Below are positions 3,701 to 23,565 of a stretch of DNA of 64,000 bases, piece after piece. The stretch covers positions 1,550,001 through 1,614,000 of the forward strand of contig CM031557.1 in assembly GCA_018466975.1 (NCBI GenBank). The letters are read 5' to 3'. Source of the DNA: Sparassis latifolia (lineage: Eukaryota; Basidiomycota; Agaricomycetes; Polyporales; Sparassidaceae). The notes under the pieces are model-generated. The model had not been told where the DNA came from and searched no databases. It worked only from the letters and a program-made list of their open reading frames with translations. The position numbers and the translations under genes were made by a program. Within the stretch, counting starts at the first letter, position 1, and each line of letters starts with the position of its first letter.

Positions 3701-3869
3701 CTTCACGAAATGTGCCTCGGTGACTGTCCTCAAATGCTACAACTAATTCATTCAGTCGCAGAATTTGTTTGAACAGTTTGTCTTCTTCTGGCCAAAGGAA
3801 CCTATCCGGATTGATATTCATTGCATCCATTCGTTCCTGAGTGATTCGGTTTCCAGGTACAAATTCAGG
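793..3869 (-). pseudogene. gypsy pol, main part: reverse transcriptase, RNase H, integrase
   Basis: This is the C-terminal bulk of the gypsy polyprotein, reading leftward from the KDZ insertion site. The first part is the reverse transcriptase, with SYRSRWFCVLKK, VHDLQPLN, TPLGLLR and the catalytic FIDD box near 3190. RNase H follows with the AVDLSKYAVGFILG region near 2680, then the integrase zinc finger (HEELGHRGEH ... CHQC, near 1940-1830) and the DDE core with YLDIMF, TTDNGNEVKG and ANGVVERGH near 1760-1460. A frame change near 2827, consistent with loss of one base, separates RT from RNase H. Three in-frame TGA codons follow the integrase core (1158-1156, 1113-1111, 1005-1003), each replacing an expected CGA arginine. 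The true stop is at 793. The gene is dead as it stands, although its domains are well preserved. Confidence 0.92.
3863..3869. repeat. Target site duplication, left copy (ATTCAGG)
   Basis: The 7-bp word ATTCAGG lies immediately left of the left TIR and recurs at 23199-23205, immediately right of the right TIR. Joining the two gypsy flanks through one copy keeps the pol frame open across the junction (residues PPEF), which independently confirms both the element boundaries and the duplication. Confidence 0.88.
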
Positions 3870-3957
3870 CACACCTTTCAGTCATGTTACCTGAACTGAA
3901 CTCCCATTTACCCTGACATTGTCATGAACTGGACAGCCAGCGGATGTCGGCCCATTG
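3870..3957 (+). repeat. Left terminal inverted repeat of the KDZ element
   Basis: Bases 3870-3957 match the reverse complement of 23112-23198 with a handful of mismatches. The core around 3899-3935 (CTCCCATTTACCCTGACATT and onward) is nearly perfect. The outermost bases are CACACC on this side and CAGCCC on the complement of the other side. The similarity stops at the CCCATTG near 3957, where the subterminal array begins. Confidence 0.9.
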
Positions 3958-5045
3958 TCACCATGTTGACCTCTACCAGCAGTGGGCCCATATCTTTCAT
4001 GTGTGGGATACTAGCAGTGGGCCCACCGCTAGTGTTCTTCTCCCAGTGCTCGTCCCACTAGCAGGGCATATTACAGTGTTGTAACCGTTAAGCAATGGGC
4101 CCACCGCCACAGGTCAGAGGGTGGGCCGACGCCAGAGCATGTTATCGCCATCGATGGGCCCACTGCCAAAGTATGATCAATGAGCAGTGGGCCCATCGCC
4201 ACGAGTGTAAGATGACGGATGGGCCCACTGCCAAAGGTCAGAGTGTTGGCCATGGCCAGAGCATGTTTGTCTGAGCAATGGGCCCACCACCAGAGTATGA
4301 TGAATGAGATGACGGATGGGCCCACCGCCAAAGGTCAGAGTGTTGGCCATGGCCAGAGCATGTTTGTCTGAGCAATCGGCCCACCGCCAAAGTATGACAA
4401 ATGAGCAGTGGGCCGATCGCCCAGAGTGTAACCTGAAGGATGGGCCCACCGCCAAAGGTTAGAGGGTTGATGATTGCCAGAGCATGTTATTGCCAGCAGT
4501 CGGCCCATCACCAAAGCACCCTCAGTGAGGGCCTTACTGCAAGCACCCATGGGATAGGTCATCGCCAGGACATGTTTCCGCCAGCAATCGGCCCACCGCC
4601 AAAGGTCAGAGGGTTGGCCAATGCCAGAGCATGTTATCGCCAGCAATTGGCCCACCGCCAAAGGCCAGTGGGTTGACGATCACCAGGATATGTCATCGCC
4701 ACCAATGGGCCCATTGTCACATACAGCCCTGCAGTTTCCGGGCGCATTGGTGGTGATGACGTGCTCTGGTGATCACCAATCCTTTGACCTTTGCCGGTGG
4801 GCCCATCACTCACCAGCACTCATGGCGGAGGGTCAATTGGTGGCGAAAACACGGCTTGGCGATGGCCAACCCTCTGACCCTTGGCAGTGGGCCCTTTGCT
4901 GGCGGAGCGATATTCCCATGCAGTGAAGCTTTCACTCAGGTCCTTTGGCGATGGGCCAATTGCTGGCAACAACATGCCTTGGTGATGGCGAGCGCAGTCC
5001 GCCCATCTCAAGAGTACACTGGAGGAGCGATGGGCTTTAGAGCTT
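3958..5045 (+). repeat. Left subterminal repeat array of the KDZ element
   Basis: About 18 imperfect copies of a GC-rich word close to GGGCCCACCGCCAAAG lie 30-70 bp apart, often followed by GTCAGAG and GCCAGAGCATGTT. The complementary word (CTATGGCGGTGGGCCGAT) fills 22530-23060 at the other end, so the two arrays face each other in inverted orientation, as expected for transposase binding sites. Open frames here on either strand are by-products of the repeats. No gene is supported up to 5142. Confidence 0.85.
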
Positions 5046-5142
5046 AGTGATGCAGAAGTGAATGTATCCATTTTGTACTGGTATACAAGTTGTTACATAG
5101 CGGTCATATATTGCTAACACCAGAATGCTCAAAGACACTAGT

Positions 5143-6700
5143 TCAGTTGCTGCGATACGCCTCGCCACGAATGTCCCTCACAATGTACCCCATTTGGAAC
5201 ACGGTCGAGCTGGCATTGAGGTTCGCAACGTGCATATCCTCAGTGAGGTTGAGCTCACGCTGAAGACGTACAATGCGCTCCCCCAACATGGCGCAACGAC
5301 GACTAACCGCAAAGCTATCACCTTCGTCATCGTCCACTATGAATAAGGTCAACATCAGACTGAAGGTTGCCAGGGATGTACTCACTGGAACTGTCTGCCT
5401 CTGCTGCGATCTGCGCAAACGATCTACCAAGGTGGGCCACTTGTGAGCCAGAAGCGGCATTCGTCTCTCCAGAGACTGCCATTGGCAGCAGCTGTGTGGT
5501 ATCTGGGAATAAGCCTGGAACCTGTTCCCAATGGGTGGGACGATGGATCGGCAGCTCATCTGGAAGTGCTGCCAGACTTGGCATCCTGGAAGTAACAGTG
5601 ACTGGCTCAATGCTGCCTTTCATATAGTGAATGACAGGTGCATCATGGCGGAAATTGCTGTCATCGAAAGTGCGAGCTGGCGAGTGAGAGGGTGCCAATG
5701 GCGGAGGCGGTGGACTTAAAACATCGTCCAACAAAGGCCGCCTCTTTGGAGGCGAAGCGCTGGGACTATTTAGCCACCGGACCTGGCTACGCACAGGCGT
5801 CGCGCCAGGGCTGTCTATCACCAGAGCTCGCCATCGTCCTGGTGTGGCGGGAGGACTATTGTCAAAGTCCAGCAGTTTCGGCACTGGTTCCGCGTCAAGT
5901 GTCTCGTCCACCAGCATGCCCCTCGCCATCGGCGTACTTGCTTGACTATCGAAGTGGATGGATGTACGTGGCGTAGCGCCAAGGGGTTCAGCGATGAGCG
6001 ATCATCGAGGGAGTTGGGAGGTGTCAGGAGTGCGAAAGTCGAAAGTGTGAGCTGGTGGAGGAAGGGGAGTAGCTTCCAACAGGGCACATCGAGGGATTGG
6101 CGAGATGCTAGGAGTGTCGAAGTTGAACATTCCACCGGGTGCAGTGGGGGTGGAATCTGAGATGAGTGCACGCCTATGGATTGGCGAACTGCCACGACTT
6201 TCATCCTAAGCTGGCGCCAGAGGGTCAGGAATAAGTGCGCGACTTCCCTCCACAGGCGCCACAGATCCAGATGATGCCTGTACCTTTGGCGAGGCGTGGC
6301 GGTGAAGATGCTCATGTGGCGAGTTGGATGGCGCAAATGGAGCCGCCAGGGATGGAGTAGTGCGGCGGGGCATGAGGGGTGTCTGAGAAGCAGAGTGGAG
6401 AGGCAAGGAGATCTGGGCAGATCCAGGAGAGTCAAGGAGATCCGAAATGAGTGGATGACGGGGCTCAGAGATACTATCCTCCTCATCCGACTCGCCCATC
6501 ATAATGTCCAGCGTGTCAGGAGGTTCCGTGTCACTGGCCATGGCAGGTAGATTGTGGCGAGCAGACAAGTCTTCGATCAGTCCTGGATCGCGGGAGATCA
6601 GTTGTAGAAAGGGGATTGATATGACATAGAAAGGTCAGATAACGTCACAAAGGAGTCAGATTCCACAAGGAGAGCAATAGAACTTACTGTTGGGAGCCAT
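5143..6700 (-). pseudogene. KDZ passenger A: Ser/Pro-rich protein, broken
   Basis: The family is not recognised. A 13-nt first exon (MAPN..) starts at 6700, followed by an intron to 6583. One frame then runs to 5386, a 49-bp intron (5337-5385) follows, and the last exon ends at 5143. The body is rich in Pro, Ser and Asp, with loose repeats of the form R-A-L-I-x-D-S-P and an acidic N-terminus (GESDEEDSISE). The last exon encodes a short amphipathic helix (LGERIVRLQRELNLTED). Two stops interrupt the frame, TAG at 6208-6206 and TGA at 6004-6002, with clear coding on both sides. The gene is divergent from passenger B, with 210 bp between the start codons. Its role is unknown. Confidence 0.65.
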
Positions 6701-6910
6701 GAGAACTTGCGGCAGGTCACACTGACCTTGAGAGACTTGAGAAATCGCGCAAGTCCAGCGATCACGTGCAAAGCACGTGGTCACGTGGCGTGTGAAGTTG
6801 AACTTGGTGCAGATCGCATCTGCCAGCTCCTAGCGTCATCTGCTCTGCCTCTGCTGTACTGCAACCTCTGCTTTTGAAACACCCTCACGCTTTCTTCTGC
6901 CAAGCTCACC
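6701..6910. promoter_or_regulatory. Divergent intergenic region between passengers A and B
   Basis: These 210 bp separate two divergent start codons (6700 on the minus strand, 6911 on the plus strand), so the region must carry both promoters. It holds a CACGTG-rich stretch (ATCACGTGCAAAGCACGTGGTCACGTGGCG near 6763-6790) with three E-box-like CACGTG words, which is unusual elsewhere in the element. No clear TATA box is seen. Confidence 0.5.
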
Positions 6911-9900
6911 ATGCCTCTGGATATTGACCCCAACTATGTTCTGCAGGCCGCGCGACTGACGGCCATTGTTGCAGCGGCGCCTCGCCAGGACGACCCTCGC
7001 TATCCGGACTGGGAGACGAGGATTTACCTCGAAGTGGTAAGTTATCGGTCGAAGGTCTGGCATGCACTTACCGAATATGCCACACAGAGTCGGCTTGAAA
7101 AGAGTTTCCCGCAGCCCTTGAAGTCATTGAGGATGCCTGGGATCGTCATCAGTGCGTTGCTGGAATTCACCCGGGCATACCAGCAGAAGGCCCTGGCGCG
7201 GCTGGACCACATATCGAACGACGACGAGAGGATATACAAGAGGTACCCTCTGGCTGTGCGCGAGTATGGGGAGTGTGAGGACCTGGGAAGGCAGTGGTGG
7301 ACTGAAGGTGAGTCACAAGCATTGTGAGGCGTCGAGCGACACACTGACTGCACCAGATCCATATTGCAAGCTGCCACCGGTGAAGAGTATGCCAGCAGAG
7401 GGCTGGGGCAATGTTCCAGCCGATGACGACACCCAGGGACGTGGCGAGGAGGACCTGGCTACTGGGGACCTCGTCGCCAAGGGGAAAGGCAAGGAGAGAG
7501 CTGACAACGACGTCGGGACAGGCATGGTGGGTGAGCGTATCATCCACGTGGAGGCGGGGGAGGACAAGGGAAAGGGCAAGAGCAAGGAGAAGGCGCAGGG
7601 AAGGCGGCGCATGCGATGAGCGAGGAAGAGGATGGGGAGAGGGAGAGGGAGAGGGAGAGGAGCAGGAGGCGAGGATGGCGACAATGCCGACAGTGGCGAG
7701 GGCGGCGATGCCGACAAAGATGATGGCGATGAGATGGCGGAAGGCGTGCGGGTGCAGGCCAGCCCAAATCCATCGAGGTCGATGCGGCATCGCCCCCTCC
7801 GCCAACTGCCAGACCAATATCGATCTCGCCAGCTGCCCCATCACTCCGAAAGCGCAAGGCGGTCATCACAGAGTCGAGTGAGGAGAGTGAGAACGAGGAG
7901 GCAGCTCCGAAGGCGAAGCGGATGAAGCCGATCGAGGTCGCAAAGGAGAAAGGCGAGGCCCGAACCTCTGGCTGAGCGCAGCGTGCGCAGAAGAGGATGG
8001 CGCAGACCGAGGTGGAGGGCTCGAAGGTGAGCACGAAGAAGAGCGGGAAGAGGAAGGCGAAGGAGTCAAGCGATGAAGAGGAAGTACCGACCGTCAAGCC
8101 GCCAAAGAAGAAGCATGCGACGAAGGAATACAAGAGCAAGGAGTTCATCGAAAGTGAAGACGAGACTCCGGCACCGCCTTCCAATCTACCCGCCAAGACC
8201 ACAGGGGACTCTAACGACGGTGTTGCGAAGACGAACACCCCTGCCAAACCTGTCAAACAGACAACGAGGATGACAGCGACGCCTCATGTCGCACCGAAGG
8301 CAAAGGGGAAGGGGAAGGCAAAGGCGACGGCGAAGGGGAAGGCGATGGTGAAGGCGAAGGTGAAGGTGACGGTGTCACAGAAGGACATGTGGAAAAAGAC
8401 GTCCACCCGCGTGTCTGACTTCATGTGGGCACATGCAACAGATTCGGTGAGTAACGATCTTGTGAGACATTGACCTGTGCTAATGTTCCTGCAGCTCGTC
8501 CCTTGCATTGGCTGCCAGGAGAAAGAGTGGCCATGCAAGCTCAACACCCCCAACTTCGGTCGCTGCCTCGAATGTGCAGCACGAGGCGTCAGTTGCAGCA
8601 TCGCGCCGAGGAACACGGATGGCGTGTCCCTGCGAGGAAACTCACACACCGCACAGCGTGAGTTCCAAGAGATGTGCGCAGTGCTGGTGGTAGAGGGCAA
8701 GCCACTGCCCACGTCGCCACCTCCATACGACATCAAGGTCGACTCCGATGAGCCCGATGGTGCAGAACCCATGGTCATGGGAGCGTCGAAGCGCAAGCCG
8801 CCGAAGAAGACCAAGACGCGCAATGCTGCGGCATCCAGCTCCAAGGTCAAGGGTGGCGAGGAGGTCGAGGCGATGAAGCAGAAGGCGACCGTCATGCCCG
8901 ATGAAGCCAACGCTGAAGGCGAGGCCTCGGTGGAGAAATCGTCGAAGTCCAAGCGCGCCACCAAGTCCGCCACCGCCACTGGAGCTGTGGCTCTGTCCAA
9001 CTCTGGCGAGGTCACCAACTCTGGTGAGGTCTCCAAGTCTGGCGCGCCTGCCAAGTCTGGTGCGGTCACCAAACCTGGCGAAGGTAAGAAATCAGGACCC
9101 AAGCCAAAGCCGGTGAGGAGCCAAAACTCAGGTGCACAAGATGGTGGCGAGGTCACCAGGACCTCAGTACGTGAGGCGGATGAGGTCCCGCCTGCCAAGT
9201 CTGTTGCGAAGGAGGGCGGGCAGACGACAAGGGTGGCGATGGGAGGTCGCTCGGGCCCAATGGTGCCCGTGATCACCAGGAAGGCGAAGGCGAGTGCTCC
9301 AAAGGCAGCAGCCAAGATGCCTCTGGTGGAAGGCGATGGCATGGAGGAAGCCGCCAGGCTGGCAATGGAGGCGGTGCAGGCTATGGCCTTCCAAACAGGG
9401 CCAGCTGCTCCGCCGCAAGCTAGCAGCAGCAAGCGCATGCTGACACCAGTCGCCAACGAACCAGAGGATGCGCCAGAGTATCAGGCAGAGGTGGCGGAGG
9501 ATGAGGTAAGCAGGACATCTTGTTGCAGCTGGAGTCGATGTAACCATGAAACAGCGCGCGTCCTTGGAGCGGCCACACGACGATCGGCGGCGTTCGCTGC
9601 TGATGCCCCACGAGATGAGCGCAGGAGCTGCCGAGGTGGCACAGGAGGTGACGCCCTCCCTGGAGATATCCAAGGCATCGAAGGGAGCGAAGTCCTCCAC
9701 ATTGGCGAAGGCAGGACATCTTGATGAAGGGCGAAGGCCAACTAAGAGGGGCCCCCACTGGACCGCAATGCAGCGAAGAAGGAGGCGGAGGCGAAAAGGG
9801 ATGTGAAGGCGAACCGCCTCAGAGCAGTGCCTCCGACCAGCAAGGGTAAGTGCGCCCGCCACAGCTTCGAATCCATGCAGCGCTGACCAGGGATACAGCA

Positions 9901-10680
9901 CCCCACTTGTGCGATGTCCAGCGAGTGTCTACAGGAAGTCCCGCTCCAGTGAACGAAGGCGACACCCCCAGTGGCGAAGAAACCTTGCAGTCATCCAACG
10001 ATGACTGCGCGAATTGTGCCGAGTTGCGACAGGAGTTCCTGGTGCACAAGGACGGGATGGAAGTCCAATTCCAGGAGAGGATGGCGGACCTCAACACCGT
10101 CAAGGCAGAGATCACAGCGGTGCTCCAGCGAATCAACCCGCCATCCGCATTTCAAGAAAATGCCCGGAGCATTCGCGAAGAGGTCAAGTTGGCGATGGAG
10201 GAGTTTTGCAGGCCGGTCACCATCGAGCTTTAGGAGAGCGTGAAGTTGGCAGTGGCGGACCTCGTCACCAAGCGACATTGCCTGCCAGAGCTCAAGGAGA
10301 AGGTCAACAGGTTGGAGCAAGGCGCGAACTAGACGGTGAGCCAAGCGGACGTCGACAAGCTGCAGGGTGAATTGGCCGACCTCCATCATTCGATGGAGCT
10401 CCAGGCAGCGTGGTCAGACAGCATGGAGAAGCAGCTCAGGTCTTCGGCGGCAGAGGCGATCGCTCAAGCGAGCAAGCTGGAGATGGAATTGGCACTCGCC
10501 AAAGAGGATTCGATGGCAGTGGCGATGTCCGCTTTGGATGAAGCGAAGAAGGTGGGGAAGGAGGTGGCGATGGCAAGAGAGGAAACCTCACTGGTGGCGA
10601 AGTCTCTGGACGCATTCCGAGAGAAGGTCGACTCCGCCATGGTCTTCACCGCCTTTCGCCCAGATATCCACAATGTGTAG
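6911..10680 (+). pseudogene. KDZ passenger B: Cys-cluster and coiled-coil protein, broken
   Basis: This is a multi-exon gene starting MPLDIDPNYVLQ at 6911. The N-terminal region to about 7310 is globular (DPRYPDWETRIYLEV ... EYGECEDLGRQWW). A long basic/acidic low-complexity stretch full of KGKGK and EDGD follows. Near 8495-8610 there is a cysteine cluster with spacing C-x2-C-x6-C-x9-C-x2-C-x6-C (CIGCQEKEWPC ... CLECAARGVSC), likely zinc binding. A repeated (T/K)xSGxV stretch near 9000-9080 and a coiled coil (about 10000-10650) complete it. Introns are visible at 8448-8493, near 9507 and near 9846. Four in-frame stops (TGA 7617, TGA 7973, TAG 10231, TAG 10330) and frame changes near 7760 and 9750 break it. 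It may bind DNA or another element protein; no function is assigned. Confidence 0.7.
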
Positions 10681-11040
10681 TCATTAGAGTATTGATATAC
10701 ATGCTTTTTAACCTAGCATGGAATCTCCATGCACTCGATTCGCCACCGCCACTCCAAGTCAACTGAATGCCTGCTGAAGTTCTTGCCAACTCCCCTCGCC
10801 ATTGCCACCATCTCCATGGCTTTACCTATGTAGATCTATGGGTCACATTAAACAATGTGGAAGCCTACGAGTCTACTTTGAACTGGAGTTATATTGTCAA
10901 GGTCTGGTGCCGCCACTGCGGGTCTTGCGACCTGCGCCAACTTGGCCACTCTCTTTCACTTTGGCGGCTGCTTTCCCCAGACGGACCGGCTTCAGCTTGG
11001 TTTCTCCCTTGTCCTTGACCTCCGGGGTCTGAGGCAGAGC
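10681..11040. other. Convergent intergenic gap
   Basis: This 360-bp gap lies between the stop of passenger B (10680) and the stop of the HMG-box gene (11041). It should hold both 3' ends. I see no gene, no strong hairpin and no repeat. Confidence 0.6.
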
Positions 11041-14000
11041 TCATCTTCGCTTTGCGGGAGGCTTGTCACCATCATCCGAGTCCTCGGCCCTCGCATTCTT
11101 CTTCCTCGGCGAGGCCACTACCAACTCGTCCCGAATACCACGTCCACGCTTCCGAGGTGGCGGATTGTCTTCGCCATCGGGCTCGGGATGTGCTGGTTGA
11201 TGTTTCCGCTTTGGATCAGGAAGCTTCTTCAAATCTTTAACAGCTCCTAGTGGATGCTGACTGCGGGTATTCTTGCCAGGTGACTCATCCATCGCTTGAC
11301 GCTGACTGCGAGTGATCCTGCCGGGGATATTACTCTGAAGGGCATCAGTGATCGACCTTCCCTGGAGCGCTTTGGCTTGACCTGACGGACGGTCTTCCGT
11401 GGCTGCTGCCTTCCTCGTCTTAGGTATAAACGGAGGCGGTGGCAGTCGTTCAGCACCACTGCTAGGTACGGACAAGTGTGCATCGTCCTCTTCACCATCG
11501 TCAGAGGCCCCACCACTGGTCTCCTGGCTCGGCCCTTCGTCTTCTCCACTTGAAATGATTGGTTTGTCAGCCATGGGGGCAGGCTGGTGAGCCTTGTGAA
11601 CTTTGGCAGCAGTAGCAGCGCCATCGTGAGTTCTTGCAGAGGCATCACCTTCCTGCTCCTCCTGGCCCCCAAGGCCATCGCCACCTTGTGGGGCACCGCA
11701 TATGGCAGGCTTGCTCACTGGCTTCACCATGGCATGGGTGACGTTCCCTTCCACCATGTCCAAGGTAATGATCTCGCAACAGTGAAGCAGCTGCTCTACT
11801 GCGTCAAATGAGATCGCCGAGTTCACCACATAGTCGGGAAGGTTGGTCGGTTCGCCCTCCTCAATGAACTGAGATCGTGTGAGGTCCCTCAGTGCCATAC
11901 CAATTACGAGTGCAGATTGTTGTATGCCCTGTGGATGTAAGAACCGATATTTTGTCAGCCATGGTTTGTCGCCCAACCAGTTCTCGACGATGTCAAAGTT
12001 GTCCACCGCATGAAATGACGGCGGGAGGTAGCGCTGGCCATATGACCATTCGCTCCAGGGAATCGGATCATACCTGGCGAAACGATACACCTGGGGCTAT
12101 ATGACGGATGATCAATAGTGGCTATGAATCCCCACGAAAGGAGCTCACCACAGTCGCAATCTTGACTTGCTTCAGCATATCCTGGTATCGCGGTTCGACG
12201 GAAAGGGTGGCAAGAAACACGTCTCTCCTTTTCACGAGGTGAGGCACAGTACTCCCCACAGTACTCCCACCAGTGAGACGCGGGGCTCGGCCTTGAAGCT
12301 CAAGCCTGAGCTTTTTTGTACTGGGCTCCAGTTCACTCGATGCTTCATCGGTCTCCTCTGTGTCAAATCTGTGCAGTTCGCCCAGAGGAAGGTCTTGGAG
12401 ACCTCGCTTTGCCTTCATCTTGGCACCGCCGCTACCACTCACTTGAGGTGCATTAGCCTTACGTCCATTGGTGGTGGCGACTGCCTTGCCCCTCGCTTTA
12501 TTCGCAATCACGCTCTCGCCATCCCCTGAATCTTCATCGCTGGCCGTATCTTCTTCGGAAGCCATGCTGGGTATATCTGGCGAACTCCGATCAGAGTCTT
12601 GGCTGCTTCTGGCATCGTCTTCCGAGTCGTATGCATCTTTCATCTTGCGTTTACGCCCACCACCTTTGGCTCCACCAGGGGCCGCTTTGCCCTTTGTCGC
12701 CTTTGATACCGCCTTTCCCGTGACCTTGCGCACAGGTTTACCCTTCTTCTTCGCCTTCCTCGCCTTCTTCGGTGTGAGTGCTTCTTGGACCTCATGTTCA
12801 GATCCTTCTTCTAATGCCTGTGCTGATCCGTCAAGTGGTGGAAGAGGATCATACTTGGTGGGAGCAGCTTCGCCATCCTTGTCGAACTACTGGGTGAATC
12901 ACATGGTCTGCTCAGGTCCATGTTCCTCTTGGTGTGCCCGCCAGTGGTCGAGGAGGGCACGAACGGGAACACTTGTCATCTTTGAGGGATCGATCCACTG
13001 GAAGTTCTCAGGTAGCATCTCCGCTGGAATAACCTCATTGATGTCGTCTATGCTGTTCAGCTTCGTCCATGGCGACTTGCAGTTCCGAACACCCTTCGCC
13101 AATGCTGTAAACTGGTCAGCATCTCTCAACACCGAGTGGGAGTGTCATACCGTAGTGATGATTCATGAAGTCTCGAACTTGTACCTTCATCACCTTGAGA
13201 GGCGCTTCGCCATACCTTCGGGCACCGGCGGGAGCAGAGGAAAACCGTTGGCTGTCAACTGAATCTTGTCCATGGCCGCATGCAATCGGCAGGTGTCTTC
13301 TTCACCATCACCGTAGTCTCAGTCACACCTAAGGAATCAGGTCAGTGTGCCAGCGACAATGCAACTGAGGTCTTCTTACCGTATTCGCCTTTGGCCCACT
13401 CAGAGAACACCTTTGCTAGAGGCTGGTAAGCACGCAGCCACCCAGGATAGGCCCCGAATGGAGTTCCATTGGTGATGGCATGGTTGACCTCCACCCTTCA
13501 CTCGGGGGTTAGCAGATGGCGACAGTCGGATGGTCTACGCTCACATCTCTACCTTCAGACTCCCCGCTTCCTTCGGATATGCTAGCATGAATGCCATGCG
13601 AATGCCCATGGTGTCCCACATAGTCTTGGCAAACTTCTTCAGATATTGCATCATTCGCTGCTCCCTCAGCCTGTCTTAGGTCAGGATTTGCCTTATGCTA
13701 CGTGACAGGAGGTATGCACTTCATTTTCGTCTTATCATCCAGAGTGCCATTGCGCCAACTTTCCGCCTTTTCCTCATACGCCTTCTGCTCCTCCTCGGAC
13801 AGTTTTGCCCATTCGGCACTCCGTGCAACTCTCCACACCTTGGAGACATTGCAACCCTTTTCTGCTGCGAGTGCTCGCGTGGCCTCAGTCACCTTGTCCC
13901 TCTCCAGCGCATCCCACACCTTGAAGGCATTGGGCTTGCCAGAAACATGCATACGCTTTTTCGTCGCTTTCTCCTGCGCATGGCGGGCGTGGTTATTGAG

Positions 14001-14366
14001 CCACTCTCGGATTTTCTGCGGTGAGAGTTAGTGGGGACCTCACAGACATGAAACACTGCTCACAGTTTCCACAATGATGTCGTCATAATTTGACGTGTCG
14101 ACAAACTGTGTCTTCAGCTTCTGGCGCAAGCTCTGAACCAGAGTCTTGCGTCCCTTGGCATCTGCCATGTCATAAGACCGCAGCTTCTCAGAGAGTATGG
14201 GCTGATGCTCTGTCAAAATTACAAATCTCGCCGGCATGCTTTCTCGATGTCGAGGATGAGATTTTTGTGTTGGGACAGTGAAGGGGGTCGATAGTTCAAC
14301 AGGCAGCGCTCTGTCCATTTCCTCGTCGGCCGCCCACAACTCAACATGCACGTGCTGATGGCCCAT
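11041..14366 (-). pseudogene. KDZ-associated HMG-box protein, broken
   Basis: This is a minus-strand multi-exon gene. From the start near 14366, a helical segment (RKTLVQSLRQKLKTQFVDTSNYDDIIVETV, about 14200-14090) precedes a divergent HMG box at about 13950-13740. That box is recognisable by KPNAFKVWDAL, WAKLSEEEQKAYEEKAESW and the spacing of its aromatic residues. A region with VNHAITNGTPFGAYPGW and an AKVFSEWAKGEYG segment follow. The gene then runs into a long Lys/Glu/Ser-rich tail, and a final exon from 12090 begins QVYRFARYDPIPWSEWSYGQ and ends in basic nuclear-type sequence at 11041. Stops TGA 12901-12899 and TAG 12889-12887, plus a frame change near 13210, break it. KDZ elements are known to carry a divergent HMG gene; target binding or chromatin bending is the likely role. 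Confidence 0.78.
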
Positions 14367-14914
14367 TTGGGCTTACACCAATTACCCTCCTCGCCATGGT
14401 GTGTGGTGACTGCTGAAGCATTGTATGTGTATTTTTCGCAGTGGCGGGAGGTGGTAGTAGGTATGCACTAGCATTCATGCCTGGTGAAAGGCAATGTTGA
14501 ATGTCGCTTCTATGGCAGAGCACACCATGCCAACTCTATCTCGCGAATGCTGGGTGGAGGCAATCTGGCGATCATCTGCATGCCAATCTGTGGGATAAAG
14601 GGCTTCCTCGGAGTTAGGCTCAGCCAATTAGATGGCGGTGACGAAGGGCCCAGACATGGCGGACCACCCGGCCCGTGATCCGGCATGGCGGCATCAAGTC
14701 CAGCTTGGCGGCATGATGAACATGTGAGATGTGCAAGGGACGTGCTTGCAAGCAACATGCAGGCAGATGAATGCATACTGTTCTTTGCCATTCTGGCCCC
14801 TCCTACATTCTCCCCTGCATCTGCAAGCCAACCACCTGCGCCCACCATACACCTGTGCATTCCTTCAACCGATGCATGCTGTAATCGTCCCATTGATTGG
14901 CAGACAGCATCAAG
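14367..14914. promoter_or_regulatory. Divergent intergenic region between HMG and TET/JBP genes
   Basis: These 548 bp separate the minus-strand HMG gene start (14366) from the plus-strand TET/JBP gene start (14915), so they should carry two promoters. Several ATGGCGG/TTGGCGG words (14630-14710) resemble the core of the subterminal arrays, which raises the possibility that element proteins bind here too. No coding exon is evident. Confidence 0.5.
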
Positions 14915-16108
14915 ATGAGTGATCTGTCACCCATGCCACTGACCGATCAGATAGCAGGAGTCTTGGAGCTCATGTTCTGCCGAAAGCTCCATCTGGCCAC
15001 TCATGCAGCCCATTCTGCGCCATCTATAGAAGTGCCTCCGTCCATGCCATCCGCCCTCCTATTAGAGTGCAATGGCATTGCAGATGCTCTTGTGAAGGCC
15101 ATCTGTAATCCTGGTAGTCATTAGTCTTGCCGCAGGTCTGATCACACTGATCATGCTGTTGTAATAGTAAGGCTGCAGTGGGACATTGATAGATATTGCG
15201 ACAGTCTTTCGATTCAGCCCACGGGGCAGAATGAAGTCCTCGAGGCAGAACTGGAACGGAAGTGGCCTCCTCTATTTGGTGAGAGTGAAATATGCATAGA
15301 CCAGCCCGCCACCCTCGTGGACATGCACGGACGCATTTTGGCTTGGATACTTCCAAGAGTGTTGATACCAGATCGCCAGGTGAGTGGTTTGCCCAGCCGT
15401 GCGCTGTGATCTGACAAATTTGTCAGACGAAGATGTCCAAGCGACCAGGGCCCTACACCCAGCAATAGCAGCCAGTAAGCCTTCCAGCACCACCGCCAGT
15501 TGGCGACACAACCCGTTGTACTTCTTGCCTCCTGAGGAGTGTGCCCAATTCTCAGCGGGCTCCTTGTGTCTCTCGCCAGGTTGGTTCCAACAAGTAAGAG
15601 AGGTGGGTCTCCTCGCCACGCCATTTGCCTTGTATCTGGAAAGGCTTTGCAGCATATGGAGTCTGGGAGGCTGGAGACCTCCGCCAGCCTGAAGCTTGAG
15701 GGCAGAAGAAGTTGGCTGCATGATATTCATGACTCCTCCACATTGCTGGGTGCCATCCTGGCCATCGTTCACCCAACGCTATATGCCGCAGGATGCCAGT
15801 GCTTGGGTTTGATCCAGCAAGACACAGAATTGCGAGAGATGGCGCTGAACTGGTCGTCGCCATTCAATGCGCTCCAGGTGATCGCCAACCGGGAAACTCC
15901 TTTCCACCAAGATAGCAAGACAAGATACACATTCTATGACCTGTTGGCCACATTGGGCAACTACACTTGCGCGTGGTTGAACTTCCCCGCCATGCGTGTC
16001 ACCATCGATTATAGTCCTGGAACTGTCGTAGCCTTCTGCGGAAAGGCGATTCATCATGGCGTCACTCGAGCAGATGGCGAAAGGCTCATCTATGCATACT
16101 TCATGTGA
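14915..16108 (+). pseudogene. TET/JBP-family dioxygenase (5-methylcytosine oxidase), truncated near the C-terminus
   Basis: Members of this family use Fe(II) and 2-oxoglutarate to oxidise the methyl group of 5-methylcytosine or thymine in DNA. Four exons are visible: 14915-15113, 15168-15379, 15427-15593 and 15644-16108. The double-stranded beta-helix core lies in the last exon. Metal ligands H and D are in FHQD (15905-15913) and the distal H is in AIHHGV (16052-16057). The 2-oxoglutarate Arg is in DGERL, and LNFPAMRVTIDYSPGTVVAF is the conserved beta-strand region. Thus all catalytic residues remain. TGA at 16106 replaces an expected CGA right after YFM, and matching sequence (VQNRLGIPAPHWM) continues after it, so only the tail is lost. 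The splice at 15380-15426 leaves the frame off by two bases, suggesting a small indel. Typical KDZ passenger. Confidence 0.88.
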
Positions 16109-16260
16109 GAGGGCGTCCAGAACAGGCTGGGCATTCCGGCGCCCCACTGGATGCAAGCTTCATATTACACCTCACACATTGGCATGTGCACAGTTCATCA
16201 CCGAGTCTGCATTCCTAACTCAGAACAGGTCCTAACTGGCTCGCTTATTAGAGGGACATC

Positions 16261-16689
16261 ATGCCAAAGACTGATGGAGACGAGAACACTATGCAGGGGA
16301 TGGAGACTGTCGATCACAGCTTCATTGGCGGGACAAAGTTGGCGGAGGTGATGGCAAAATATATGGAGTCACAAATTTCCGAATCCTAGCTGAAGGTTGG
16401 CGAGCGCGCGGTACGAGTGTGCATTTCACATCTCGACAGTGTTCAGCTCAAGGTGTAGTTATCACTGATGGCAGCGTATGGTTGGCGGACCTCGAAGTTG
16501 GCAGAGATGGTGGCGAAATGTGTTACGGTCGAGAAGTTGTGAGTGCTAGTGGGGCAGATGGCGGCAGCGTTGGCGGCGCGCAGTGCAAGTGAACAAGTAC
16601 TCCGAGTCAAGGCGTTAGCCCTTTTCTCGCCAACATTATGCTACTCCGAGTCAAGGCCTGATATGGTGCCTAAAGAGACCACGAGGTGA
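16261..16689 (+). pseudogene. KDZ passenger E: small helical protein remnant
   Basis: An ATG at 16261 opens a frame (MPKTDGDENTMQGMETV) that continues for about 140 codons but is broken by TAG at 16387, TAG at 16456 and TGA at 16540, ending with TGA at 16687. Between the stops the composition is uniform: Ala, Leu, Lys, Val and Met with few Gly or Pro, repeated patterns such as TKLAEVMAKYM and SKLAEMVAKCV, and QMAAALAARSASEQ. This looks like a decayed coiled coil similar in style to the C-terminus of passenger B. It lies between the TET/JBP and transposase genes in the same orientation. No function is assigned. Confidence 0.5.
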
Positions 16690-16840
16690 TAAGGCCCAGG
16701 CATTGCAGCCATTCTTAACCACCTTGATGAGTAGTCTGGTGGGCAGCAAGACCATGTGTGATTTGCACGTGTTGTGTTGTGCGATAGGGACACAATGCTC
16801 ATCGATTGGCTTGGAATACGACTCCCCACTGACCTGAACC

Positions 16841-19800
16841 ATGAGCAGATGCAACAAAAGCAGGCTCATTGTAGACCTGGATGACGAGGTTGAGTTTGTG
16901 ACCAAGGTAGCTAAGCAGACCACTAGGGGAGTATGCTATGTGGACGTACCTTTGCCCATGCCCACGGGTTCAAACGTGCCATCGCCTTCCAAAAGTCCAT
17001 CGAAGGCTCCAGCTTCAGGCTCCTTGTTTAACTTGGATGATGGCGACATCCTGGGCAACATAGGTGTGCCGATTCAGCTGGATCCAGCGGCTCGGAAGAC
17101 AAAGGTGGGCACTCCCGCCATGACCATCTGATGGTCTGACCATGCGCGATAGACCCAGAATGACTTCATGAGGGACTGGATACCCCACCGTGATGACTAT
17201 CTTCATGCCATTGTCGAGATGGAAGCCCCACCTGAGCCCAGAAACTGTGCAGAATGCAAGATTGGCGAGGGACGGTGGCGATGCCTGGACTGTATGGGCA
17301 GACCGCTCACCTGTACTGACTGCTGTCGTAACGGCCATCAGCGTGCTCCTTTCCATCGGATAGAGCATTGGCAGGGTCAGTATTTTGAGCCGGCATCACT
17401 GTATTGGGTTGGCGTCTGCATCCATTTGGGGCATGGCGGAGATCCCTGCCCTCTGGGCGCCTTCACAGCACATAACAACCCTGCGCCGGTGGTGGCCCCG
17501 GGGTCCAATTTCTGGAATGCCTCCAATGAAGACCTAAATGCACATGATGGCGAGGTCTCAGATGATGGCGAGGTCCCATTCAACTTTGCACCTCTGGCAG
17601 GCACCCTTGACGGTGAAGCAAGGCAAACCGACGATGCTCCTGATCCCACTTGGGAGGAAGATGTGCCACCGGTGCTCTCCCGGCCACCTCGCCGTGATAG
17701 TTACGGGAATCGGATCATAGTCATTGTCGACATCTCCGGCGTTTACCATATCGGCGTTGACTGGTGCCAGTGTGAGATGGCAGTGGAGTGTGACATGCAG
17801 CTTCTTCAAATGGGACTTTACCCTGGTACCATCAAGGATCCCCATACCGCCTTCACATTCGCCGTCCTCGACAATTTCCTTCTGGAGAACAAAGAGTGCA
17901 AGACAGCGGCATTGAACTACTATAGCAAGCTCAAACGGGTCACGAGCAATGCCTTCCCTGGCACTGTTCCTGTAAGTGTTCACATGCATTCCCATGGCCC
18001 AACTGTTCATGCCAGTTCCTCGCCAGGACCGTTATCGTGAGCTGATGCGGGTGTCCCACCAATGGCGCCAACTCAAATATCGCAAGTGGCACGGCTTCTC
18101 ACACGATGCCCTCCATCCTGTGGAGAAGGGTGGCCTCGCCATCTTTTGTCCCGCCTGTCCCCAGCCTGGGCTTAACCTGCCTTTCGATTGGCAAGCAGAT
18201 CCAGTGCAGTGGAAGTTCAAACGCGGCTTTGTCATGGATGGAAATTTCAGTGCAGAGCACATGAAGATGAAGCACCCCGAGGAGGACATCACCCTCAGTG
18301 ATGGCCAGGCATTCATGGTCAGCCAAGAGGATTACAAGGCTCATCTGGCGGTGGCCATGGAGTCGCATCAGGTGCGTGTCTGGCTGCACGTTCTTCTTCT
18401 GCCCTTGACTCCTAAGCCCACCAGTGCTCCACTTGTCATGAGCACCGCACTGTCAATCAGGCCAATGTGGATCATGCCAACCTTGACGCCACAGGAATCG
18501 GGGCCACTGCTTGCGCCAGACATGGTTTCTTCGTCCCTCATACTGTCGTCGATTTCCAGAAGGGAGAAAGGTTCGCATATGTCTCTTGTCATGATCTATT
18601 CTCACCGACGCACCCTCTGCAGACAAATGAATATGGATTACTCTCTCAGCAATGCACTCCTGACCCTCACCGGTATCACCCTCGTCCTCGTCATGTACGA
18701 CATCATGTGCCAGTATGGCGTCCATGTCCGCAAACATTTTCGCCACAGCGCCTATCTGAGGATGCCCTTCGAGCTCAAGGTAGACCAAGGCATCGGCTTG
18801 TTTCATGTGCACGGACACCAAGATTGCTGCTTCCAACGGTTCTCGCCCAACTTTATAGTTGGCGCTGGTATGGTCGATGGCGAGGTCATCGAGACCCTGT
18901 GGGCGCCAACAAATGAGGTCTCAGGCAGTACCAGGGGCATGACCCGAGCTCACCGCCAAGAAGTCCTTGACGATCACATGAATGACTCCAACTGGAAGAA
19001 GACGACTCGCATGGGTGAGCCTGGTTCCTCCTTCCCTATTTGCCACCTGCCTTATGCTGCCTATAGTGCCAACCTTGATGACAAAGTGGAAATGCGTGCT
19101 CCTGGGCTTCCCACGAAGCAAGGAGTCCTTTGAAGCTTTATCTGCATCCACAGATGAGGATGTCCTTGAGGCATGGCAGAAGGAGTACGACGACGCTATG
19201 GACGCTCACCAAAATGATCCGAAGATCATGGACACCTTCGATGTCCAGCTCATGAAGGGTGAGTATCCTTCCATCATCGTGTGGCATGTAGTTAACATGA
19301 ATGCAAGCCCCGGGTAAAGACCTCACCCAACTCAGACTGGCGGGCGAGGAGTCCGCCAAGGGCTTGGAGAAGGGCACCGCCGGATGGTTGTCGACTGGCC
19401 TCAAAATTCAAGAAGCACAGTGAGTTTGCCTCATCTTAACAAAAATACAGCTCTGACGGCCTTCAGGCTTAAGCTTGCGAATGATATCCGCAAGGCGGGT
19501 CAAAATCCGAGCGTGGCGGAGGACCTCAAGACTCTTGAGCGCCGTCAGCACCTCGAAGTCAGCATTCTCACATTCCAACGTCGCTCTGAGAAGTTCATGG
19601 GAAGGTTGGAGGACGTTCCCGCCATGGAAGATCATGACGATGGTGTGCTCTGGGATTCCTTGGATGAGAATCCTTTTCAAATACACCTAGAGGACGCTGA
19701 GTATGGCGAGGATGTGATTCCTCCCGAGCGAGCTTCCTTGAATTTACCTTCGCAGATCGGATTCGTGGCCGCCATCGCCAATGGGCTCCAGACCCTGGTG

Positions 19801-20532
19801 GCCCAAGAGTTGGAGTTATGCAAAGGCCTGATGAATGACATCCTCCACGAGCTTCGCATGGCGCTTGGACTGAAGTCTTACCTCTACCGCAAGAGGGTTC
19901 ATCCCGCCAACAGTGTCGGAACCATGACCCGTGCACAGGCAGAGGTTCATGCTGCCGATCAGACTGTCTTGGCCTGCGCCAGGCTCTATTCCGCCAACCG
20001 ACGCGCCATTATGCGCTTGGGCGCCACCGATGAAGACTTGGCCCTCTATCGCCCTTTGGATAAGAAGGACCTGCACGTGAAGACTGCTGTCATCGAGGCT
20101 AGCACCTCCGGGCTCAGGAACGTCAACCTGGCTTGGTTCTGGACCATGGATGTCGCTGGAGATCGAGGTTCATCAGAATGGATGGACGAGTGTTCGTAAT
20201 TGTCCGATCGATCTCTAGGCCTCCTGCTAATTTACCCTCCAGTCTATAGAGTGAATTGGCTGCATGCCAGAGCTCGATATGAGAGATGGAGGGAGGAGTG
20301 TGTCTTGGTCCACTCCGAAATGGCCTGGACCATAGCCACCTTCAAGCGGAATGCGGAACAATGGGCTCACTGACTCGAGATGACGGATCCTTCCTGGCGG
20401 GGTCATGTTTGCTATGCCGCCAGGCAAGTGAGTATGTGGCGGACCTTCGCCAGCCACGCCACTGACGCCTTCAGCCACATCCTTGCCCTGGACATTGAGG
20501 ATGAAAGGGCGGGCGATGAAAATGTGCTTTGA
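16841..20532 (+). pseudogene. KDZ transposase with CxC2 zinc cluster, broken by three stops
   Basis: This enzyme cuts and joins the element ends. The N-terminus is variable (MSRCNKSRLIVDL). The CxC2-type zinc cluster is at 17251-17460 (CAECKIGEGRWRCLDC, CTDCCRNGH, FHRIEHW, GVCIHLGHGGDPCP), followed by the RNase H-fold core. The conserved acidic positions are the D of MDGNFSAEHM (about 18235), the D of MYDIMCQYG (about 18693) and the E of DGEVIETLW (about 18885). Exons 1-7 join cleanly through introns 17972-18026, 18372-18424, 18571-18622, 19015-19066, 19259-19307 and 19420-19466; a further intron near 20199-20246 leads to WLHARARYERW. Stops TGA 17129, TAG 17150 and TGA 20371 sit in frame, each where CGA or CAG is expected. 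The catalytic core is otherwise whole. The exact C-terminus is uncertain. Confidence 0.92.
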
Positions 20533-20731
20533 GTCAGGGTTCACTGGGGTGTACGCATATTCATGTTTGCTATATCGATGTAGTGATCGTCATGTATGTA
20601 ATTCCTACTCACCAATATCACATTTGGCGAAGTGACCTCCATCCTCGCCTGAGGGCTTCATCTCGGCATGTGCTCTCCAATCGCATGACATCAGACATCA
20701 GATATCAACCTCGGATCATCCACTCACCGTC

Positions 20732-21452
20732 ATGTCTGCCCAGTCTTCAACATCAGATGCGCGCCCCTGCCTGTTCTCCAGAGGGAGGTTGCAGTTGGAA
20801 GTCTACACTTGGAGGATCCAAGAAGCTGTTCTGGCACTGGAGCCTGACCCAGATCACTTCACCAAGGTCCGTTGGGAGGAAGGCTTGCGCCGGGAGATGG
20901 TACGCCTTTCTTGCTGATATCGCCTGACCCTGCTGAGTCCTGTGCAGTTCGCCGTCAGGGGTATCTGTGGCGACCTCGCATTGGCGAGTCATGCTGACCA
21001 TATTGATCATGGCGGAGTTATCGCCAGTGTCCTCACCATCTGCACTTTCAATCGCGAAGTTCTGCGCCCCATCAGCATTGACGTCAAGGCGATTCCACGC
21101 CCCACCACCCTCGTTCCTCGTCCTAAGAACCTACTCGAGGATTCACCCAACTACTGGTGGAAATGGGATCGTCAGGTTGGGCCGGCGGGGAGCCCTATGG
21201 AGGCCTGGTGGTACAAACTTGGTGATCCCTGGGTGAGTGGTATGTTCCAGCACCTTACAGTCTTGCTGAACCTCGAGAACGTAGGAGAAGGTGTACACCG
21301 TCTCCGAGTCTACACTGGTGCAGCTTGAACAGCTGCATGTTCGCGTCGCGAACCTCACTAGTTGGTTGCACGAGAGGACAGGTCAGAACCTGGATGTGGT
21401 GCTGGAAGAGCTGCAGGAGGCGATGCAGCAGCTGCGTGAGTTAGGAATGTAA
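20732..21452 (+). CDS. KDZ passenger G: intact 206-residue protein of unknown family
   Basis: Three exons join in frame with no damage: 20732-20899 (56 codons), 20948-21232 (95 codons) and 21285-21452 (55 codons plus stop), with introns of 48 and 52 bp. The product starts MSAQSSTSDARP. It has a compact N-terminal part with conserved-looking W and R residues (LEVYTWRIQEAVLAL), a middle with FNREVLRPISIDVKAIPRP and NYWWKWDRQVG, and a C-terminal helix likely to coil (LVQLEQLHVRVANLTSWL, VLEELQEAMQQLRELGM). I do not recognise the family. It is the only KDZ gene here without a premature stop, and it lies just downstream of the transposase. It may be a structural partner of the transposase. Confidence 0.72.
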
Positions 21453-21557
21453 TCGCCCAATGCCAGGCGTCCATTTATGCTGTAGTGTGTCGAATATAAG
21501 GTTGTCATGTCTTTGAACCTGGGCAATGTACCTGGTGTGGTAAGGCGAAACATAGTA

Positions 21558-21890
21558 GCCACATACTCTCCTCAGGAGGGCACATCCCCAATGGTATCTG
21601 ATGCATGGCTCGAAAGCCAATGCCACATGGGAGAGTTTGGCGAAGTCATTCTGGACTGCATGTTCAGATGGCGAGTGATATCCACCACAGTTCGCCAACC
21701 CTACTCACGGTGGAAAGGACCGCCATTCGTCTCCACATACTCTACCCAGAAGGGCACATCCCAAATTGTATCTGATGCATGTCTCGAAATGCCGATGCCA
21801 ATTGGGAGAGTTTGGCGAAGTCATTCTGAACTCCATGTTCAGATGGCGAAAGATATTCGCCACAGTTCGCCAACCCTTCCCACAGTGGGA
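21558..21890 (+). repeat. Tandem duplication with 174-bp period
   Basis: Two copies of about 158 bp (21558-21713 and 21732-21890) share CCACATACTCT, GGGCACATCC, GTATCTGATGCATG, GGGAGAGTTTGGCGAAGTCA and ATGTTCAGATGGCGA in the same order with about 85-90 percent visual identity. They lie downstream of passenger G, inside the right arm of the KDZ element. From 21453 to 22105 I see no coding sequence otherwise. Confidence 0.8.
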
Positions 21891-22105
21891 GAGAGTGTGA
21901 TACTACAAGGAGAGCTGATAGTGAGCTAACCAGAATTGGAGGGAATGATGGGTGGATTACGTGGAAATTATTGGCCGGCGGTAGCTCCATCATTGCCCTG
22001 TTAGGCGGTGGATCAATCACTGAAAAATATGCCCATGGCGGTGGACTGATCGCTGAGAACTACACCTATGGCGGTGGGCCGATAGGTCTGAGCAAGAGGT
22101 GCCGC

Positions 22106-22444
22106 ATGAGCAACGACTCGGCGTCGGAGCCCCCTTCTTCTGTGGTGTGCTTCGGCTCATATGCTGATTCGCACATGTCCACATCCTCGTCTACTTCGTG
22201 CTCTTCGGTTGACTTCGGGTACAATCCGTTCACTTCGTATGGTCTACTTCTTGGCTCGGGCAACCAGGCGTTGCATTCGCCCATGCTTCCTCCTGACCAA
22301 TCTCCACATTTCATACATCCGCCCATGCTTCCCCCCGACCAATCTCCATGTTTCATACATCCACCTATGCTACTCCCTGATGAATCATCCAGTATGTTCC
22401 TTCACCCACCCATGCTTCACCAAGATGACACGGACACGATATGA
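22106..22444 (+). other. Possible small ORF over a 45-bp minisatellite
   Basis: An open frame from ATG 22106 to TGA 22442-22444 encodes about 112 residues. Its first half is Ser-rich (SSSTSCSSVDFGYNPF). Its second half is built from three to four 15-residue repeats of the type HPPMLPPDQSPxFI, which reflect a 45-bp DNA repeat from about 22277. The minus strand is open too, so this may be only a minisatellite. Its position just inside the right subterminal array argues for a structural or non-coding role. Coding is unproven. Confidence 0.35.
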
Positions 22445-22529
22445 GCCCAGTTGATAACCTAGGGCAAGGCAAATAACTCAGCTATGCCCAGGCTAGTCAG
22501 ATATTTCAGGTGACCCATGCCTATGGGCT

Positions 22530-23060
22530 CAGAAATATACCTATGGCGGTGGGCCGATGGCTGTATAATAGCCCCAGTGGTGGTGGGCTGATCGCTCAGA
22601 ACACTACCTATGGTGGTCGGCCCATCGCTCAGAACACTACCTATGGCGGTGGGCCGATGGCTGTATAATAGCACCATGGCGGTGGGCCGATTGCTCAGAA
22701 CACTACCTATGGCGGTGGGCCGATCGCTCAGAACACTGCCTATGGCGGTCGGCCCACCGCTCAGAACACTACCTATGGTGGTGGGCCGATGGCTGTATAA
22801 TAGCACTGTGGCAGTGGGCCGATCGCTCAGAACACTACCTATGGCGGTGAGCCGATCGCTCAGAAATATACCTATGGCGGTGGGCCCATCGCTCAGAACA
22901 CTACCTATGGCGGTGGGCCCATCGCCCAGAACACTACCTATGGAGGTCGGCCCATCGCTCAGAACACTACCTATGGCGGTGGGCCGATGGCTGTATAATA
23001 GCGTCATGGCGGTGGGCCGATCACTCAGAAATACTCCTATGGCGGTGGACCCATCGCTCC
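22530..23060 (-). repeat. Right subterminal repeat array of the KDZ element
   Basis: About 17 copies of a roughly 33-bp unit made of TATGGCGGTGGGCCGAT joined to CGCTCAGAACACTACC; a variant unit ends in GGCTGTATAATAG. The GGCGGTGGGCC core is the complement of the core repeated at 3958-5045. A long minus-strand frame crosses the array and joins the gypsy pol start, but the Gly-Pro-Thr-Ala-Ile-Gly repeats it would encode are a by-product of the array. Confidence 0.88.
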
Positions 23061-23111
23061 AGCCTTCCCTTCGTCGCCATGAGCCAATCGCTGACAGCTC
23101 CTTACACAGAC

Positions 23112-23198
23112 CAATGGGCCGACGTCCGCTGGCAGTCCAGTTCATGACAATGTCAGGGTAAATGGGAGTCCAGTTCACAAACATGACTGAATGGGCTG
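23112..23198 (-). repeat. Right terminal inverted repeat of the KDZ element
   Basis: This is the complement of 3870-3957. The nearly perfect inner part runs from 23112 (CAATGGGCCGAC) to the TAAATGGGAGT near 23158-23168; the outer 30 bp are more divergent but keep ACATGACTGAA. It ends at 23198, directly before ATTCAGG. Confidence 0.9.
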
Positions 23199-23205
23199 AT
23201 TCAGG
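23199..23205. repeat. Target site duplication, right copy (ATTCAGG)
   Basis: This is identical to 3863-3869. The next base differs on both sides, so the duplication is 7 bp as seen; an 8-bp duplication with one later mutation is also possible. Confidence 0.88.
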
Positions 23206-23565
23206 TGGGTGGGGTGTGAGTACTGGTAAGGATGCTAGGGGATCCTCTGAAAACTTCCGAATAACACGTGCATCTTCTAGAAAAACTCCTGGTACTGGCT
23301 TGACTTTACGATCCACTCGCTTATAAGCACCATAGACTTCTGTGCCCATAAACATAAAAACTTCTTCATCGGGGTCCTCCCACTCCTCCTGGAATAATGC
23401 TGGGTCCAATGGAACATGAGCAGTACTGGTCTCTTGAATCTCAATGTAGTGTGCATTTGCCTTAGTGGCAACACTGCACGATGATCTGCTATAATCACTG
23501 GTAACAGAATGCAGGGTAGGTGTAGGCGCGCGCATAGTGGGTGTTTGTATATTGGTGTACTTCAT
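23199..23565 (-). pseudogene. gypsy pol, N-terminal part, cut off by the KDZ insertion
   Basis: The pol frame starts with ATG at 23565 (MKYTNIQTPTMRAP) and reads through FMGTEVYGAYKRVDRKVKPV, PGVFLEDARVIRKF and DPLASLPVLTPHPPE before it meets the KDZ TIR. These motifs are the usual lead-in to the reverse transcriptase of Agaricomycete gypsy elements, and the next expected residues (FVPGNRITQERM) are found at 3869 leftward. The start lies 390 bp downstream of the gag stop in the same frame, so pol may be a separate ORF or be reached by splicing or re-initiation. Confidence 0.88.

Follow-up and report, generated by a model that had tools for sequence, protein, structure and literature searches.

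The element and its genes

The window analysed here, a 64,000-nucleotide stretch of Sparassis latifolia contig CM031557.1 (positions 1,550,001 to 1,614,000), contains a 19.3 kb transposable element which carries a KDZ transposase gene, a TET/JBP oxidase gene and the genes A, B, H and G. Exon limits are partly hand-read; an automatic splice model was set aside in favour of the hand-read exons because it avoided stops by means of false introns in decayed copies. In window coordinates, the features of the element are as follows.

3863..3869, no strand: left target site duplication (TSD) ATTCAGG, 7 bp, from the flanking 7-mer repeat and the empty site
3870..3933, no strand: left terminal inverted repeat (TIR), starts CA, no CpG in the eight copies read whole
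3947..4805, no strand: left subterminal sites, 17 x TSGGCCSA at irregular spacing, by site count
5143..6700, minus strand: gene A, Ser/Pro-rich, about 470 residues, last exon hand-read, in-frame stops in this copy, by sequence reading
6911..10680, plus strand: gene B, charged, multi-exon, about 1000-1100 residues, frame interrupted in this copy, by sequence reading
10897..14366, minus strand: gene H, about 1000 residues, with a divergent HMG-like box, by sequence reading
13719..14018, minus strand: HMG-like exon of gene H, by a below-cut-off profile match and predicted fold
14915..16105, plus strand: TET/JBP gene, whose frame stops early in this copy, just past the putative 2-oxoglutarate-binding Arg, by Pfam
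16841..20532, plus strand: KDZ transposase gene, multi-exon, by Pfam
17705..17950, plus strand: CxC2 cysteine cluster (PF18803)
18428..18992, plus strand: KDZ transposase domain, split over two exons (PF18758)
20732..21452, plus strand: gene G, about 205 residues, open frame in this copy, by sequence reading
22075..23122, no strand: right subterminal sites, 15 x TSGGCCSA, by site count
22527-23059, no strand: 33-bp tandem array within the right subterminal region, by repeat analysis
23135..23198, no strand: right TIR, ends TG, no CpG in the eight copies read whole
23199..23205, no strand: right TSD ATTCAGG, 7 bp, from the flanking 7-mer repeat

A preliminary description made from the letters of this sequence had proposed a KDZ transposase with a CxC2 cluster and a TET/JBP core with its HxD motif, distal His and Arg, and profile searches recovered both above the Pfam cut-offs (KDZ PF18758, E 6.7e-35; CxC2 PF18803, E 4.2e-25; Tet_JBP, E 4.3e-19), with the TET residues kept. 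No convincing match was found in profile searches with genes A and G. Gene B has a Zn2Cys6-like cysteine cluster, C-x2-C-x6-C-x9-C-x2-C-x6-C, the spacing of which agrees with the Zn2Cys6 pattern; its match to the Zn_clus profile (E 0.019) lies below the Pfam cut-off, and a coiled coil in the same protein is judged by eye only. Genes A and B are divergent, B and H convergent, and H and TET divergent, i.e., head-to-head.

Insertion into a Gypsy retrotransposon

The element was found to have exact limits at 3870 and 23198, with CACACC as its first bases, GGGCTG as its last, and thus CA..TG termini. The boundaries and target duplication had been claimed beforehand and are borne out by ATTCAGG on both sides as well as by an empty site. 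The host of the insertion is a Gypsy element, with reverse transcriptase, RNase H and integrase domains at 1159-3881 on the minus strand, and a related Gypsy on contig C12 is uninterrupted at the corresponding site, where ATTCAGG is present once. When the flanks of the element are joined, they match the C12 Gypsy at 97% over 417 bases. This uninterrupted relative with a single 7-mer proves the insertion and its limits. The Gypsy-type retrotransposon is thereby seen cut in two in the window (1159-3881 and 23206-28869), while its C12 relative lacks the insertion.

The TIRs that had been described are present at both ends, albeit imperfect over about 64 bp. Likewise, the element had been called complete, which is true of its structure but not of every gene, since the window copy is partly decayed in TET, A and B. 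The matched stretch of gene A is interrupted by one TGA and one TAG, and the frame of gene B is broken relative to other copies. The TET stop just past the Arg is of the type made by CpG decay, and other copies continue beyond it.

A shared cassette across the genome

Copies were sought in the genome of 41.4 Mb (22 contigs). A left-end query of 231 bases gave at least 42 matches, at least 38 of which cover the whole query, while a right-end query of 269 bases gave at least 424, mostly array fragments, with 42 among the matches listed extending to the terminus; both searches score the best candidates only, so that these counts are lower bounds. Joining left and right ends by nearest pairing yielded 32 tabulated units, with two alternative short pairings excluded, and left six left and ten right ends unpaired. 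For the gene table, positions were compared but strands were not, generally one match was taken per place, and weak or broken matches were included; its KDZ input was the 33 among the matches listed that were judged members of this family.

On this basis, 18 of the 19 units of 19.3-21.6 kb have matches to all six genes (A, B, H, TET, transposase and G), always in one order, and the 19th lacks only a TET match. Imperfect matches that were counted include a partial TET in C5:4301341, a TET with a TAG in C7:1738578 and a gene A of 55% identity in C17:73118. All six are likewise matched in four larger units (24.6 to 43.7 kb), one of which contains a nested copy, and nine smaller units have from zero to four. 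The TET and HMG-like genes, which had been proposed as standard cargo, are thus matched in other copies as well. Chance assembly of the cassette was considered and is ruled out by the same six-gene order in 18 of 19 copies.

The ends are near-invariant. All 28 copies tested for TSDs start CACACC and end GGGCTG, and the 64-bp ends are identical and free of CpG across the eight copies read whole; in 2 of 20 further copies the first ten bases deviate (CACACCGTTC). A 7-bp TSD is perfect in 13 of the 28 copies, has one mismatch in three and is swapped in two; one of the excluded short pairings has its flanks among these 28. The swapped duplications belong to C10:495586-515388 and C10:538596-560016, which lie in opposite orientations and bear each other's target duplications, as is expected after inversion by recombination between the two copies. 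Three of the short copies, of 6.9, 9.1 and 12.4 kb, in which none of the six genes was matched, are also flanked by perfect TSDs, as would be expected if they were mobilised in trans.

Subterminal palindromes

The subterminal arrays of the preliminary description are upheld by site counts. The palindromic TSGGCCSA occurs 17 times on the left and 15 times on the right against chance expectations of 0.16 and 0.15 (means of 300 first-order Markov simulations per end), with no site between the two regions in the window element, and the middle is free of it in all eight copies. A palindromic 16-mer, GCRRTSGGCCSAYYGC, allowing up to two mismatches, has 26 to 81 sites per copy in the eight copies and is restricted to the subterminal regions in seven of them, the eighth (c5b) having one mid-element match. 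The number of sites in the right 33-bp array differs among copies. A separate 175-bp unit is present in nearly two repeats at 21559-21888, past gene G and ahead of the right array.

Subterminal arrays at both ends are also a feature of En/Spm (CACTA) elements with TnpA, which resemble the present element in their CA..TG termini and methylation control but differ from it in having a 3-bp TSD and a transposase of another superfamily. In other DNA transposons, subterminal repeats serve transposase binding. This raises the alternative that the arrays here are transposase sites and that A, B, H and G serve the transpososome or its regulation rather than demethylation. The short copies without gene matches fit that alternative, in that they keep the ends and have perfect TSDs. 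Gene H, however, lies head-to-head with TET in two families (see below), which points to a joint use of the pair, and we regard a role in transposition alone as rather doubtful.

TET and its neighbour H

Among solved structures, the element's TET is closest to CcTet of Coprinopsis cinerea (PDB 7vpn, 7w5p and 8jkk; E 4.5e-26), and it was classed as AG-type, related to CcTET. The two have their catalytic residues in common: in the alignment, HxD, the Asp337 position, the distal His and the Arg are all kept. They differ at the position of the Gly331 of CcTET that is linked to N6-methyladenine (6mA), which is Thr in the aligned copy. In the parts of PMC12730594 drawn on here, Asp337 is reported as essential for activity on 5-methylcytosine (5mC), whereas Gly331 is linked to 6mA and is Gly or Ser in Kyakuja. 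A further difference is that CcTET has been studied as a single protein, while the TET described here is a gene of a transposon cassette and is truncated in the window copy. Among Tet_JBP matches of at least 62 bits, 25 of 28 are without a stop in the matched stretch. At C6:1548033-1548341, 1.7 kb ahead of the window, there is also a TET/JBP match that is weak (26 bits) and broken, with one TAG.

For gene H, an HMG box had been claimed. The HMG_box_2 profile matches H at E 0.0053, and a further HMG-box match has E 0.0032, both below the Pfam cut-off; in a diverged homologue, the match falls on the same half of the profile (E 5.6e-4), which is also below it. A single-sequence structural model (predicted local distance difference test, pLDDT, 73) retrieved HMG boxes at ranks 1-25 in a Foldseek search against the PDB, although the best E was 0.37 (probability 0.97) and no match reached E <= 0.001. 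Because the profile match of the divergent box is under the cut-off, we call H HMG-like.

Diverged relatives and selection

A second family with the head-to-head pair, F3 (contig C8, L045), has a TET that is 62-68% identical by block to that of the window element's family, F1, and an H that is 33-60% identical by block. Synonymous sites between F1 and F3 are near or at saturation. The ratio of nonsynonymous to synonymous divergence (dN/dS) for TET is 0.07 over 57 codons and 0.10 over 75 codons; for H it is 0.29 in one exon, and two others fall under bounds of 0.15 and 0.26 set by saturation, with dS taken as 2. Judged from these ratios, TET and H are under purifying selection between families.

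Pieces of the cassette also occur elsewhere. At one locus on C11 (L088-L089), relatives of B (34%) and H (35-45%) are convergent, and queries from F1 or F3 recovered no TET there; at L090 on C8, relatives of A and B are divergent, as in F1. Together with F3, these arrangements indicate that the relative orientation of the cassette genes has been conserved through long divergence. The one copy read of a more distant family, F2 (putative limits C9:270600-287000, L086-L087), has a TET of 31% and a transposase of 32-46% identity, and an array of its own, made up of CCTATATAGG and CTTGGCCAAGG, which differ from the F1 motif; outward of that array, CTGAATGGGCT was recognised by eye, as at the F1 end. 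A search for gene H in F2 gave weak colinear matches, none of them significant, and we do not claim it.

Within the family, the six genes change almost neutrally once CpG is accounted for, with omega about 1 for most of them, in a test in which 5 of the 14 exon pieces (B1, B3, H2, H3 and K5) contain stops in the frame used and exon limits are imperfect. Gene G has 16 replacement and 3 silent singletons. Near-neutral change of this kind is what copies usually show once inserted and is no evidence against a function in the source lineage, and the between-family dN/dS values speak for function.

These observations bear on the possibility that the passengers are host genes captured by chance and without a role. 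The within-family omega of about 1 would be in line with chance capture. Against it stand the one order in which 18 of 19 copies have the six genes, the diverged homologues that retain A and B divergent, B and H convergent, and H and TET divergent, and the between-family purifying selection on TET and H; we consider it highly improbable.

CpG decay and the limits of protection

Eight copies were compared over 17 kb for singleton C-to-T changes on both strands. CpG sites show 586 such changes in 15,000 site-copies, as compared to 245 in 55,936 for other cytosines, a ratio of 8.9, and the excess is similar on both strands. Of the inferred CpGs, from 5% to 33% have been lost, depending on the copy. 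Repeat-induced point mutation (RIP)-like mutation was considered and is ruled out, since CpA is not raised over CpC. As a separate observation, non-CpG transitions are strand-asymmetric in two young copies, C7:1738578-1758602 (L026-L028) and C5:4301341-4321961 (L017-L019), with purine to pyrimidine counts of 34:5 and 27:7 (p 2.4e-6 and 8e-4, respectively), while the other six of the eight copies have no significant strand skew.

Taken as a whole, the window element is probably a copy of a TET-carrying, Kyakuja-type KDZ family of about 20 kb, whose TET would bring transient or partial relief and whose copies decay later. The KDZ transposase would move the element via its near-invariant terminal repeats and subterminal palindromic sites. 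TET of open copies, with its active-site residues kept, would oxidise 5mC and ease CpG silencing briefly or in part, most likely during the expression of copies and by acting in trans on the family or the whole genome, and not by shielding each copy permanently. The HMG-like protein, encoded by the divergent gene beside TET, would be the most likely partner of TET at DNA. Inserted copies would then be methylated and decay neutrally.

Several observations weigh against this reading. CpG decay is present in every 500-base interior bin, at observed values of 9% to 21%. In the right array, if an ancestral unit is assumed, two CpG positions show losses in 99 of 383 unit-copies, and the array loss in each copy is equal to or greater than that in its interior. 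Ten of the 28 copies have no target duplication. The putative assignment to Kyakuja draws on three features, namely the length of the TSD, the termini and the type of TET. Furthermore, no within-family purifying selection survives correction, the lowest p being 0.042 (shared changes, gene A).

Given that CpGs were lost at roughly nine times the rate of other cytosines, all along the element and in its arrays, the eight copies have been methylated. As a control, one Gypsy pair gave a CpG-to-other ratio of 9.9, compared to 2.6-9.9 for 28 KDZ pairs, of which the older are mostly at 7 to 9.9 and the youngest are lowest. This control is weak in that only one close pair exists, and its ratio is not lower than that of any KDZ pair. 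That the Gypsy lacks TET is taken from PMC12730594, which, in the parts drawn on here, found no retrotransposon with TET. The Gypsy pair gives no support to the idea that carrying TET kept copies unmethylated over time. Its ratio does equal the highest of the KDZ pairs, so an early or modest protection is possible, and a protected phase soon after transposition may fit the low ratios of young copies. As read from these substitutions, the mutation record argues against lasting protection, and any escape would be transient or partial.

The preliminary description had interpreted the element as a self-demethylating transposon. The TET-carrying KDZ unit, the HMG-like gene and their place as standard cargo (18 of 19 copies) hold, and some protection, chiefly of young copies, is compatible with the Gypsy ratio, but eight copies, arrays included, have been CpG-methylated and decayed, which leaves self-demethylation as a partly supported hypothesis.

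Whether TET is aimed

We considered whether TET could act unaimed, genome-wide on methylated DNA, such that the element gains only from a general loosening of silencing. The parts of PMC12730594 consulted report oxidised methylcytosine on both retrotransposons and Kyakuja in Coprinopsis and Laccaria and suggest a non-target-specific action, and the Gypsy CpG ratio falls inside the KDZ range, at its top. Less easily accommodated are the CpG ratios of most KDZ pairs, which are below that of the Gypsy pair, and the family-specific arrays, which unaimed action leaves unexplained, although transposase binding could explain them. An unaimed TET is quite possible, if short of being the favoured account.

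The arrays raise the further possibility of sequence-targeted anti-silencing, in which B (Zn2Cys6-like) or H would bind the end arrays and bring TET to its own family, by analogy with VANC of Arabidopsis. In VANDAL elements, as described in the portion of PMC5735166 drawn on here, VANC targets are often tandem repeats which vary between related elements. The likeness extends to element-coded proteins, family-specific tandem arrays and a proposed relief of the element's own methylation; on the other hand, VANDALs belong to another transposon group, that portion of PMC5735166 describes no oxidase for VANC, and targeting here would be hypothetical. Targeting would fit the confinement of TSGGCCSA to two subterminal regions, that of GCRRTSGGCCSAYYGC (up to two mismatches) to the ends in seven of eight copies with one extra match in c5b, and the other array (CCTATATAGG and CTTGGCCAAGG) of the TET family F2, seen in one copy beside the shared terminal CTGAATGGGCT. 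Yet the right-array CpGs have decayed at least as much as the interior, every interior 500-base bin has lost at least 9%, and the arrays could serve the transposase alone. We therefore consider such targeting unlikely. The stronger proposal that the six-gene cassette is a self-targeted demethylation machine, with GGCC palindromic arrays guiding TET and with arrays and their readers co-diverging by family, is one we would regard as improbable.

Relation to published Kyakuja elements

TET-carrying Kyakuja transposons, together with an anti-silencing proposal, have already been published for Agaricomycotina: Kojima 2025 (PMC12730594, December 2025), in the parts drawn on here, describes them in five orders and proposes that they escape methylation silencing. 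The window element shows the 7-bp TSD, the CA..TG termini and the AG-type TET related to CcTET, and shares with these transposons the KDZ-type transposase and the proposed escape. Two Laccaria families in that paper have 7-bp duplications and CA..TG termini without TIRs, in contrast to the imperfect TIRs of about 64 bp here; as the absence of TIRs is stated for those two families only, we do not treat it as defining Kyakuja. A second difference is the Gly or Ser reported there at the Gly331 position, which is Thr in our aligned copy. The words "HMG", "subterminal" and "tandem repeat" are absent from the main text of PMC12730594. We did not meet the six-gene cassette, the selected pair of H and TET or the TSGGCCSA arrays in the parts of that paper covered here, and we make no claim that they are unpublished.

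Other features of the window

Downstream of the element, the window contains a Plavaka transposase at 37529-39229 (E 7.5e-87). A HET-domain protein (1e-14) and a WD40/Utp12 protein are encoded at 45560-47380 and 48737-50635, respectively, and are likely host genes.

Implications

With an empty site and 18 copies in which every gene is matched, of which eight were compared base by base, this family is well suited to a test of the idea that TET serves escape from silencing. The conserved HMG-like neighbour of TET and the family-specific arrays provide concrete candidates for how TET might be aimed.

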